This document shows positions 15,651 to 22,897 of a stretch of 57,329 nucleotides of DNA, piece after piece. Both the position numbers and the translations under genes were made by a program. The stretch is from NCBI GenBank assembly GCA_900317925.1, contig ONIQ01000008.1:1-57329 (forward strand). Reading direction: 5' to 3'. How positions within the stretch are numbered: position 1 is the first letter of the stretch; each line of letters starts with the position of its first letter. This DNA comes from an uncultured Bacteroidales bacterium. GTDB lineage: Bacteria > Bacteroidota > Bacteroidia > Bacteroidales > UBA932. The notes beneath the pieces were generated by a model. It was not told the DNA's origin. It did no database searches and was given only the letters and a program-made list of their open reading frames with translations.

Positions 15651-16913
15651 TTAACGCCCCTTATACATGTTCTCGTAATACTTCTGGTAGTCACCGCTGG
15701 TCACATTGTCCAGCCAGTCCTGGTTGTCCAGGTACCACTTTACGGTCTTCTCAATCCCTTCCTCAAACTGCAGGGACGGTTCCCAACCCAGCTCCCGCTG
15801 GAGTTTGGAGGAGTCAATCGCATACCGCAGGTCGTGGCCCGCACGGTCGGTAACGTAGGTAATGAGGTCCATGTCCTCCCCTTCCTTACGGCCCAGCAGA
15901 CGATCCACCGTATTGATGAGCACCTTGATGATGTCGATGTTCTTCCACTCGTTGAAGCCGCCGATGTTGTAGGTCTCGGCAATCTTTCCGTTGTGGAAGA
16001 TGGTATCAATCGCCCGAGCATGGTCCACCACATACAGCCAGTCACGCACATTCTCTCCCTTGCCATAGACCGGAAGCGGTTTGCGGTGACGGATGTTGTT
16101 GATAAAGAGCGGAATCAACTTCTCCGGGAACTGATAGGGACCGTAATTGTTGCTGCAGTTGGTCACGAGGGTCGGAAGCCCGAAAGTATCGTGGAAGGCC
16201 CGCACAAAATGGTCAGAGGATGCTTTCGCAGCACTATACGGAGAGTGGGGCTGATACTTCAGGTCCTCCGTAAAGAACTTCTCGCCATAAGCCAGATGGT
16301 GCTTCCCGCTGCTGGCCTTCGTCGTAAACGGCGGATCAATCCCCTCCGGATGCGTCATCTCCAACGCCCCATACACCTCATCCGTACTGATATGGTAGAA
16401 ACGGCAAGGGATGCGGGTGCCTCCGACAACCGTCTCGCTTCGCTCGACCCCACCGTTCGCTTCGCTCCCGGTCCCCCCTCTTACGGTGCCGAGGGTGGCA
16501 CGGGTTGCTGGAGGCACCGGCATCCCTGCATCCATCTGCCATCCCATCGGCATCCAATACGCTTTGGCAGCTTGCAGAAGCGACAGCGTACCCATGACAT
16601 TGGTCTGCGCAAAAGTGAAAGGATCCTTGATAGAACGATCCACATGACTCTCCGCGGCCAGGTGGATAATCCCGTCCACCTGCTCCTCTTGCATGAGTTT
16701 CAGCACCCCCTCAAAATCACAGATATCCATCTTGACAAAGCGGTAATTCGGCTTGTCCTCGATATCTTTCAGGTTGGCAAGATTCCCGGCATAGGTTAGC
16801 TTATCCAGGTTGATGATCTTATAATCCGGATACTTGTTCACAAATAACCGTACCACATGCGAGCCGATGAAGCCCGCGCCACCCGTAATGATCAGTTTCC
16901 TTTTATAATCCAT
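15651..16913 (-). CDS. rfbB: dTDP-glucose 4,6-dehydratase with an in-frame repeat insertion
   Basis: The 420-residue protein catalyses step two of dTDP-L-rhamnose synthesis (dTDP-glucose to dTDP-4-keto-6-deoxyglucose). It has the NAD-binding GGAGFIGSH near residue 13, the catalytic STDEVYG near 174, the YSAAK proton-relay motif near 222, and TNCSNNYGPYQFPEKL. I start at 16913 ([12 protein letters not shown]); an upstream initiator would add 17 hydrophobic residues unrelated to the family. The family usually has about 10 residues between the helix ending AKAYW and the strand FYHIST. Here about 51 residues occupy that gap because a 119-bp inverted-repeat element (16408-16526) is inserted in frame. 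The insertion lies just before the active-site strand and could affect activity, or be tolerated as a surface loop. Confidence 0.9.
   Translation of the reverse strand: MDYKRKLIITGGAGFIGSHVVRLFVNKYPDYKIINLDKLTYAGNLANLKDIEDKPNYRFVKMDICDFEGVLKLMQEEQVDGIIHLAAESHVDRSIKDPFTFAQTNVMGTLSLLQAAKAYWMPMGWQMDAGMPVPPATRATLGTVRGGTGSEANGGVERSETVVGGTRIPCRFYHISTDEVYGALEMTHPEGIDPPFTTKASSGKHHLAYGEKFFTEDLKYQPHSPYSAAKASSDHFVRAFHDTFGLPTLVTNCSNNYGPYQFPEKLIPLFINNIRHRKPLPVYGKGENVRDWLYVVDHARAIDTIFHNGKIAETYNIGGFNEWKNIDIIKVLINTVDRLLGRKEGEDMDLITYVTDRAGHDLRYAIDSSKLQRELGWEPSLQFEEGIEKTVKWYLDNQDWLDNVTSGDYQKYYENMYKGR
16408..16526. repeat. Inverted-repeat (palindromic) element inserted in frame in rfbB
   Basis: The element is bounded by 23-base inverted repeats at 16408-16430 and 16504-16526 that match at 20 of 23 positions (left arm GGGATGCGGGTGCCTCC..., right arm its reverse complement). 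Between them are two copies of a TTCGCTTCGCTC/TCTCGCTTCGCTC-like motif (about 16433-16444 and 16456-16467) and a small hairpin GTGCC...GGCAC (16486-16501). It has no coding capacity of its own but its antisense frame is open and is read as about 40 residues rich in G, T, R and P within RfbB. The structure is that of a small non-autonomous palindromic repeat. Confidence 0.75.
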
Positions 16914-20500: not shown

Positions 20501-22897
20501 CTAGCTTTTGTCTTGTTCACCGTAACCGTAGCCATAGCCGTAGCCGTAACCATAGTGACCATAGCCGTAGCCGTAATGGCCATATCCGCGGGAGAAGGAT
20601 TCCACACCGTTCAGGATGAGGGACATCCGGTTATACTTACCGCTCTCGTACAGGTCGTTCAGCACGGCGATACCCGGTTTGTCAAACATACCGGCACGGA
20701 CGATGAATACGGTCAAATCGGCATGAGCGGCCACAATGGACGTATCGGCCACGATATCGATAGGCGGGCAGTCGAAGAAGATGTAATCGTAATGGTCCTT
20801 CAATTCCTCCACCATGGTCTTGAAACGGTCAGAGACCAGCAGTTCGGCCGGATTCGGAGGAAGGGTTCCCACGGAAATGATGTCCAGGTGTTCGGCCACA
20901 TGCTGGACCGAATCGAGGATATGCTCGGACTTGCCGTTCAGGTAGGCCGAAACGCCATGGTTGTTGCGATCCAGTGACTTACTCAGGGTCGCCTTGCGCA
21001 GGTCAAGGTCCAGCAGGAGGACGCGGGAGCCCTTGATGGCCATACTGGCAGCCATATTCATGATAGTAAAGGTCTTACCGGCATTCGGCGTGAAGGAGGT
21101 CACCATGACCACGTGGCACCCGTCTTTCTGGCCGACCATCAAATCCAGGTTCGTACGGAGGACACGGAAAGCCTCGTTCATCATATCGCGCTTGCCGCCC
21201 TGGACGATAATCGCGCAATTGGAATCATCGAAACGGTCGGTCCGCAAACGCTTCCAGTAACTGCCATTCAAACCCATCTGCGGGATTTCCGCGAGGAATG
21301 GAAGCTTCAGATTCACCAAATCGGAACGGGTCTTGACCGAGGAATCCAGCATCTTCCTCAAGAAGAAGTAAATCAGCGGTAAGAAGAAACCCAGCAGGAA
21401 AGCCACCAGGAATACCGCCATCTTGTTCGGGGAGACCGGAGCCGGGGCGCCATTCGGGGCCATGATCAGCCGCGTATTCGCCACGTTCACCAGGGAGGAA
21501 AGCTCATTCTCCTCCCGTTTCTGGAGCAGGTAGATATACAGCTGCTCCTTAACTTTCTGCTGACGGGTAATGCTGAGCAACTGCAATTCTTCCCCGGAGG
21601 CGGAGGAGATCTTGTTCATAATCTGCCGCTGCTCCTGTTCCACCTTGTCCACCTGGAGCTGCAGGGTCGCAATCAGATTCTCCACACTGCGGCTGATGGA
21701 AAGGCGGATGGCATCCAGCGAAGCATTCATATCCCGGATAAGGGGGTTGTTCTCACTGCTGGACTTCAGCAAACGGTCCCGCTCAAGCAGGAGGGTATTG
21801 TACTCGCCGATCTGGGTGTTCACCTGATCGCTGACCAGGCCGGAATTGGCCGGAATAAGCGAACGGGCGTGGACGGGATCGCCCAGGTACTCCCGGATAT
21901 ACTTGGCGATGGAAAGCTGATTGCTCACCTCGAATTCCCGGCCGGCATACTCCTTGGACAAGTCCAGATACTGGCGGGCGGCGTCGGAGATATCCGCAAT
22001 CCCGTGACTGGCCTTATAGTCTTTCAGGTCTTCCTCAATTCCGCCCAGTTCTTCCTCGATGATCACCAGCCGGTCCTTGATGAAATCCGACGTATTCCGG
22101 GCCGAACGATTCTTGTTGCTGATCCAGTCTTCGTCATAGATATCCAGCAAGGTGCGCAGGATGCTTTCCGCACGACGCGGAAAGAGGTCCTGGATGGCCA
22201 GGACAACCACGGAAGACTGTTTGGTAGAAAGATACACATTCATGCGGGAGCAATAGCCCTTGGCCCGCGACATGGCCGTAGCCCACGAAATGCTGATATC
22301 GTTCTTCCAGTCTTCGAAATGGACCGTAGGACTGATCCGGAGGGCTCCCACCGGCGTCACCAGGGAATCACCCAGCGCTCCGGATACCGGATCGGCCTTG
22401 AGTTTATCCCCATTGACACGGAAATCCTTCAAAACAAAGGACTGGGGACCGGTCTTGGAGATAACGAACGAGAAATTGGATGCCATATTCCCTCCCAGCA
22501 ACGATAGCATCACGGGGGTTCCCGTATACAATTCGCGGGTCCGGAGGAACTGGAGATCGGTATAGGTCGTCTCCAGGTTCAGGCGGCGGACGACCTGCTC
22601 CATCAGGTCGGGAGAGGCGAAGGCCTCCATCTCGTTGTCCACATTGGTGCCCCGCCCATACCGCATCCGGTTATAACCGGCAAAGGAGGTCAGGTCACGC
22701 ATCATGGAAGATTGGGAATCTTCATCCACGATGACTTTTTCAACCCGGCTGTACGTATTGGGCGTGCGATACAGGTAAAAAACCGCAACCGCCAGGAAAA
22801 ACAGGATGGAAAACACATACCACCAGATATTGTCCCGGACCATCGCCCAGATATCAGCAATCGGAAGGGTCGTTTTTTTCTCTATGGATTCTGCCAT
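20501..22897 (-). CDS. wzc: Polysaccharide copolymerase / tyrosine autokinase (Wzc type)
   Basis: The 798-residue protein has an N-terminal Wzz domain with membrane segments at about 30-48 and 490-512, a long periplasmic coiled-coil-rich region between them, and a C-terminal BY-kinase: Walker A TPNAGKTFT near residue 604, A' LLLDLDLRKATL near 632, and B YIFFDCPPID near 705. It controls polymer length and works with Wza in export. The last 30 residues are an unusual run of GYGHYGYGYG-type repeats, the tyrosine cluster that is autophosphorylated, coded by a hexanucleotide-like repeat at about 20515-20585. It follows wza by 21 bases. Confidence 0.95.
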   Translation of the reverse strand: MAESIEKKTTLPIADIWAMVRDNIWWYVFSILFFLAVAVFYLYRTPNTYSRVEKVIVDEDSQSSMMRDLTSFAGYNRMRYGRGTNVDNEMEAFASPDLMEQVVRRLNLETTYTDLQFLRTRELYTGTPVMLSLLGGNMASNFSFVISKTGPQSFVLKDFRVNGDKLKADPVSGALGDSLVTPVGALRISPTVHFEDWKNDISISWATAMSRAKGYCSRMNVYLSTKQSSVVVLAIQDLFPRRAESILRTLLDIYDEDWISNKNRSARNTSDFIKDRLVIIEEELGGIEEDLKDYKASHGIADISDAARQYLDLSKEYAGREFEVSNQLSIAKYIREYLGDPVHARSLIPANSGLVSDQVNTQIGEYNTLLLERDRLLKSSSENNPLIRDMNASLDAIRLSISRSVENLIATLQLQVDKVEQEQRQIMNKISSASGEELQLLSITRQQKVKEQLYIYLLQKREENELSSLVNVANTRLIMAPNGAPAPVSPNKMAVFLVAFLLGFFLPLIYFFLRKMLDSSVKTRSDLVNLKLPFLAEIPQMGLNGSYWKRLRTDRFDDSNCAIIVQGGKRDMMNEAFRVLRTNLDLMVGQKDGCHVVMVTSFTPNAGKTFTIMNMAASMAIKGSRVLLLDLDLRKATLSKSLDRNNHGVSAYLNGKSEHILDSVQHVAEHLDIISVGTLPPNPAELLVSDRFKTMVEELKDHYDYIFFDCPPIDIVADTSIVAAHADLTVFIVRAGMFDKPGIAVLNDLYESGKYNRMSLILNGVESFSRGYGHYGYGYGHYGYGYGYGYGYGEQDKS
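20515..20585. repeat. GGNTAY-type short tandem repeat coding the Wzc tyrosine tail
   Basis: On the + strand the stretch is made of degenerate copies of CCGTAGCCATAGCCGTAACC, i.e. alternating Gly and Tyr codons on the minus strand with two His. About 11-12 hexamer units are present with third-base differences. Such a tract can change copy number by slippage in steps of 6 bases without breaking the frame, changing the number of phosphorylatable tyrosines. Confidence 0.7.

Follow-up and report, generated by a model that had tools for sequence, protein, structure and literature searches.

The window examined here, meaning the whole analysed stretch of DNA, comprises 57,329 nucleotides from an uncultured Bacteroidales bacterium. 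On its minus strand, positions 15651–16913 encode rfbB, a dTDP-glucose 4,6-dehydratase of 420 aa whose product matches solved enzymes of that name in a sequence search of structures (best match 8du1_A, E 8e-137). From the start ATG at 16913–16911, the open frame runs through a palindromic element of 121 bp (16407–16527, minus strand, core co-directional with rfbB), which is defined by an inverted repeat, its folding, BLAST copies, and a match to the covariance model R1 (16413–16522, minus strand). The arms of the inverted repeat in the window (16407–16431 and 16503–16527) are 25 nt long and 88% complementary, with a spacer of 71 nt. A preliminary description had placed a 119-bp palindrome with 23-nt arms at 16408–16526; this palindrome is real, and is the same object with its ends trimmed. 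The roughly 40 extra residues that it had seen in the open RfbB frame are also borne out, the element corresponding to about residues 129–169. The folding energy of the element strand is −66.2 kcal/mol (z −3.65), and 1 of 200 dinucleotide shuffles folds equally well. Elsewhere in the window, positions 20520–20588 hold imperfect short tandem repeats with units of 6, 18, and 21 bases.

Copies of the element share a fold that consists, from the outside inwards, of the paired arms P1 (about 20–26 bp), the hairpin P2, a pseudoknot formed by the P2 loop, and the hairpins P3 and P4. In the window, where all of these parts lie on the minus strand, the 5' arm of P1 (16503–16527, core strand), whose sequence is specific to the copy, pairs with its complementary 3' arm (16407–16431). 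P2 (CGTGCC-ACCCTC-GGCACCG) occupies 16484–16502, and the CCCTC of its ACCCTC loop (16491–16495) pairs with a GAGGG just downstream (16476–16480). P3 (ACCG...CGGT, 16452–16472), recognized from the sequence and the alignment of copies, is the most variable of all parts in length; P4 (16432–16448) is GTC...GAC here and takes the form GTC/GAC or GCC/GGC among copies. The repeated TTCGCTTCGCTC motifs of the preliminary description are present, and their role is that of pieces of the inner hairpins P3 and P4 within this larger conserved fold.

Two alignments were used to look for covariation. In A1 (60 copies out of 106 selected), two-sided changes occur at all 14 P1 pairs counted, at three of six P2 pairs (the other three are invariant), and at one of three P4 pairs (T-A to C-G). 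The covariation score of A1 is 0.342 versus 0.153 in shuffles, a value reached by 0 of 500; two of five covariation measures, the number of pairs (157/500) and of pair types (65/500), are not above shuffles. The pseudoknot is invariant in A1. Alignment A3, which adds other genera and was fitted to R1, a model built from 60 copies that lacks the pseudoknot, has CCCTC/GAGGG replaced by CCCAT/ATGGG, CCCGT/ACGGG, and CCCGC/GCGGG, for a total of 17 two-sided changes with 98.3% of cells paired. The score for the pseudoknot in A3 is 0.250 versus 0.074 (0/500 shuffles reach it), and no slid version comes close; here too, two measures, pairs (300/500) and types (452/500), are not above shuffles. Taken together, the pairing backed by covariation comprises P1, P2 in part, the pseudoknot, and a single pair of P4. 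At one ribF site, the copies L086, L198, and L201 have nearly identical flanks and wholly different P3 hairpins, and the 3' half of L201 is apparently exchanged, as if copies recombine.

The host gene was compared among 41 matched genomes, which gave 30 loci, one from the own genome and 29 from relatives. Close homologues do not carry the insert: the element is absent from all 29 of the relatives' RfbB loci examined, and the RfbB of G006, 93% identical, has 377 aa. The insert was found again only in G079, where 125 of 125 aligned bases are the same. The insertion site lies between the helix that follows LLQAAK and the strand FYHISTDEVYG, at a point where length varies among relatives (about nine extra residues are found at the same place in the rfbB of G035, L035). 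This variation in loop length would suit a normal variant of the RfbB family that involves no insertion; given the 29 of 29 relatives' loci without the element, and a core that recurs both in unrelated genes and between genes, we accord that explanation virtually no weight. Insertion into a pre-existing hairpin loop was ruled out, as the relatives' coding sequence at the site is not palindromic. In the rfbB of G021 (L031), the same loop holds a different, unrelated insert, about 30 residues long and including RHCEESEGRRGNL, so that repeats of more than one kind can be accommodated there.

An AlphaFold2 model of RfbB made with 26 relatives (mean pLDDT 78.4, pTM 0.81) is mostly confident in the rest of the fold, and assigns a pLDDT below 50 to residues 129–167, between the helix 99–124 and the strand 172–177 (model numbering is protein numbering plus one). 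Segments 92–96, 189–193, and 195–205 likewise score below 50. Because of these low scores at 129–167, the insert would most simply be read as a floppy, disordered loop, and the insert-bearing RfbB is probably still active.

All genomes used here are assemblies, mostly metagenome-derived. The own genome has seven BLAST matches to the element at E ≤ 1e-3, one of them a half-length remnant, and six by covariance model. Of 101 genomes in the genus, 59 gave BLAST matches, at most about eight candidates being scored per genome. Under Infernal's stricter filters, with which all covariance-model counts were made, R1 matches 49 of 61 genus genomes, for a sum of 658 matches and a maximum of 42 copies in G043. 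Matches extend to 36 of 149 genomes of the family (11 of 25 genera), and, when the order as a whole is scanned, to three genomes out of 198, namely the own genome, G325 from the same family, and G377 from another family. The exact core pattern occurs in at least 119 stretches of genome_contigs, in records titled Bacteroidales or Bacteroidia, and many of the matches listed come from the rumen and other ruminant stomachs. The same exact pattern gave 0 stretches in viral_contigs, a result that speaks against phage carriage. Searches of Rfam returned no match for eight loci at E ≤ 1, nor for five loci at the gathering score, and no earlier description of the family was found in the literature searched (subscription journals and preprints lay outside the search). 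A half-length remnant in a folC-like gene (L007, G000:C69) is still in frame, a possible peptide scar of partial deletion.

Many of the copies lie within genes. With a mechanical rule demanding at least 100 flanking codons, which reads some copies in an incorrect frame (in the sample, L217 and L220), 108 of the 153 well-paired copies fall in through-reading frames, eight might interrupt a frame, and 37 do neither. The through-frame copies lie on the gene strand in 48 cases and on the opposite strand in 60. Pfam matches were obtained for 22 of 30 randomly drawn through-frames; relative to the matched stretches, the element is outside all of them in 19 frames, between two domains in 11, and inside one in three. 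In a dehydrogenase E2, for example, it separates the lipoyl domain from the E3-binding domain; in RibF it separates the FAD synthetase from the flavokinase domain; and in DNA polymerase I it lies between exonuclease domains. Several genes have been struck repeatedly across species, and the RibF loop has copies in both orientations. That loop (L078, L198, L199, L202, L205) often holds a second repeat, CHSERSEES or similar, beside the element. A spliced intron or self-splicing RNA is disfavoured, as 108 of 153 copies keep the frame open, though it may apply to single copies. The suggestion that the palindrome is a repeat element is supported by further copies, both in the own genome and in those of relatives, by rfbB alleles without it, and by in-frame copies in many unrelated genes; a family of dispersed elements with in-frame insertions is well supported.

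The preliminary description had further proposed an element adapted to insert into genes without breaking them. Core stop codons do concentrate in one of the six frames (150 of 153 copies), and the core alone leaves 4.23 of six frames open versus 3.61 in dinucleotide shuffles. This modest excess lends the proposal weak support, and because it is modest, survival of those insertions that happened to be harmless would explain most of the in-frame cases.

The termini, which the preliminary description called terminal inverted repeats, are not fixed repeats; they vary among copies and match only within a copy. Among 168 copies, at least 11 of 16 arm positions pair with their own partner in 153 and at least 13 in 130. 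Choosing the best-pairing register inflates the within-copy pairing percentages of the 153 copies kept; the fair control, the same search with swapped partners, reaches 11 of 16 in 30 copies and 13 in four. Positions 17–26, outside the optimized stretch, pair in 58% with their own and 22% with a swapped partner. Arms of different copies, when swapped, are 26%–37% paired (153 copies, genus of the window), and in 15 of the 168 copies the arms are poorly paired. In G377, 12 of 15 copies have the same two arms, and groups of G000 and G079 copies share arms at different places. Because copies at different places share arms, it follows that the arms travel with the element; they are heritable, and then diverge. 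Matching intergenic stretches in L002 (G000:C27) and L313 (G079:C41) contain elements in opposite orientation with different arms.

The arms might instead have no sequence of their own, if insertion reverse-copied the target flank and left one arm as native host sequence. Arm sequences are mostly unrelated between copies, as this would predict, and in RibF L083 the gene-upstream arm PLGQGER resembles PLGAGEQ of the empty relative L231. Groups of copies that share arms at unrelated sites speak against such an origin, as do shared-site pairs that diverge in place with compensation. We largely abandoned it given the shared-arm copies at different places, and regard it as quite improbable.

Where two genomes have the element at the same site, 76 compensated two-sided arm changes were counted by alignment-based pairing versus 16.3 expected (21 sites, 458 positions). 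The 21 sites are 15 plus another six, of which three are poorly aligned, one has few changes, and two, including rfbB, have arms that do not differ. At the 12 sites with the fewest changes (no more than eight per side), which are the safest orthologues, there are 22 compensated changes versus 2.7 expected. In a TrmH-type methyltransferase gene compared between G000 and G079, the core is identical at 72 of 75 positions, and the arms are changed at 7 of 22 and 6 of 22 positions, with six changes compensated. Set against a silent-site divergence of 0.37 in the flanks, a value given for this pair alone, the arms evolve about as fast as silent sites and yet remain paired. Transversions make up 32 of 64 compensated changes at the first 15 sites; as they cannot pass via a G-T step, half of the compensated changes were not reached through G-T. 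Some shared sites have few compensated changes (TrmO, one; E2, two; IspH, none), and some shared-site pairs may be independent insertions. As a pattern, compensated arm evolution is well supported. These shared-site copies would constitute a natural record of how long stems stay paired, in which selection and template switching could be directly tested against each other.

The type of mismatch indicates which strand keeps the fold. If both strands mattered alike, isolated G-T and A-C mismatches would be equally frequent. Read on the core strand, isolated arm mismatches are 55 G-T versus 21 A-C (p 1.2e-4), with ratios of 14:6 for copies in the same direction as the gene, 26:7 for the opposite direction, and 15:8 elsewhere. 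Counting one copy per site (112 sites) gives 40 versus 14 (p 5e-4). When mismatches are read in the mRNA orientation, G-T is not favoured (21 versus 32 A-C, p 0.17), and the G-T excess falls short of significance when only changes seen at shared sites are counted (16 versus 9, p 0.23). Since the core-strand excess is seen whichever way the gene runs, the fold that is kept is that of the element's own strand and not that of the host mRNA. The bias fits either movement as folded single-stranded DNA or action as the element's own RNA.

The latter would mean that the core strand folds as a functional RNA, be it a ribozyme or another small structured RNA, and that selection on this RNA keeps the helices paired. 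Both the core-strand G-T excess and the covariation of pseudoknot and helices around invariant unpaired bases are compatible with this. Copies lie in both orientations to genes, however, with the mRNA-orientation mismatches at 21 G-T versus 32 A-C as above; the 13 loci searched have no Rfam match, and arm sequence is free and turns over fast. On balance we consider a functional RNA unlikely. It may alternatively be asked whether this is an old, inactive repeat, of no present mobility or function, whose arms are paired purely by quasi-palindrome template-switch mutation. Template switching is described as maintaining hairpins (PMC8794818) and as homogenizing inverted repeats in coding DNA (PMC8604942), precedents that agree with the compensated shared-site changes and their many transversions. 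By itself, however, template switching accounts neither for the conservation of the unpaired core nor for a G-T excess confined to one strand, and the same-arm copies at different places (G377, G079/G000) argue for recent spread, so that the old-repeat explanation seems rather doubtful, if a little less so than a functional RNA.

The insert in rfbB is, in our judgement, probably one of many copies of a palindromic element that is small, non-autonomous, and mobile, belongs to one taxonomic family of Bacteroidales, and has spread both within and between genes. No near-identical pair of empty and filled sites, such as would reveal the ends of an insertion, any duplication of the target, and the insertion event itself, was found among the genomes compared. 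We propose that the element would be mobilized in trans, with its core strand folded as single-stranded DNA, and that a single-strand HUH transposase of the RAYT-like kind may carry this out. Insertions would persist only if they leave the frame open and place their peptide in a loop or linker; RfbB would be such a case. After insertion, template switching between the arms at replication, with or without selection for pairing, may keep them complementary, while their sequence would drift at about the silent-site rate. A more far-reaching version is possible but tentative: the element would represent a novel kind of mobile structured nucleic acid, the pseudoknotted one-strand core would constitute its identity, its sequence-free stem would be rewritten at each site by arm-to-arm copying, and hundreds of host genes would carry translated, evolving palindromes as a source of new loops.

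Candidates for the enzyme are transposase-family proteins of the Y1 (HUH) type, about 300 aa long; within the genus, they occur in 44 of the 49 genomes that carry the element and in 2 of the 12 that lack it (p 1.8e-6, kinship uncontrolled). Elsewhere in the family, 24 of 29 genomes with copies and 8 of 15 without have such proteins (p 0.07, kinship likewise uncontrolled), the 15 being drawn from 113 copy-free family genomes. A Y1 match is absent in G325 and G377, both of which have element copies, and none of ten Y1 loci, each about 3 kb long, contains the core motifs. A link between HUH Y1 proteins and the element, suggested by gene content, is a weak one and might be treated as a lead.

To our knowledge, palindromic elements that lie in frame have been described mainly in Rickettsia and related bacteria. 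The hundreds of copies seen here (658 matches, 61 genomes) in gut Bacteroidales would show that mobile palindromes that insert into proteins are not peculiar to reduced intracellular genomes. Rickettsia palindromic elements are described as having about 105–146 bp and a long stem-loop, and as lying between genes and in frame in many conserved protein genes (PMC2229807). The preliminary description had likened the present element to them as a different family. The likeness is upheld by in-frame copies in many unrelated genes (108 of 153 in through-frames, with 22 of 30 sampled matching Pfam) and by a length, 121 bp with 25-nt arms, that falls within the same range. Copies of one Rickettsia family generally share the palindrome sequence, arms included, whereas in the genus of the window arms differ among copies, G377 with 12 of 15 copies sharing arms being an exception. 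A Bacteroidales host, a pseudoknotted core, and compensated arm changes are further differences. Compared by description and behaviour, the element may well work as its Rickettsia counterparts do.

Inverted repeats are also kept inside coding genes in the mitochondria of Nematomorpha, where perfect repeats lie within translated genes and both arms encode conserved protein regions; unlike the present case, no mobile core is described in that account (PMC6649704). The REP/RAYT and TIR/TIRYT systems have small palindromes, sometimes inside genes, whose mobilization in trans is attributed to HUH tyrosine transposases (PMC3733652). The co-occurrence of HUH Y1 proteins with element copies in the genus is a similarity to REP/RAYT. 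A REP is a 20–40 bp repeat tagged GTAG or CGTC, mostly intergenic, with copies that flank the transposase gene; the element in the window is about four times longer (~120 bp), copies are mostly in open frames (108 of 153), and no element core lies beside the ten Y1 genes examined. The pseudoknotted core would provide a concrete target in finding the mobilizing enzyme.

Enterobacterial RU elements and Coxiella MITEs are described as non-autonomous, palindromic, and sometimes in frame (PMC2229807, PMC2759123, PMC5896051). The present element would resemble them in all three respects. MITE copies share conserved terminal inverted repeats, whereas in the genus of the window there is no fixed terminal repeat and a structured core is conserved instead, although the G377 copies do share arms. 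Several G377 elements (L279, L282, L293, L295) abut another short palindrome, CTCCATAAGTGGAG, which suggests composite repeats.
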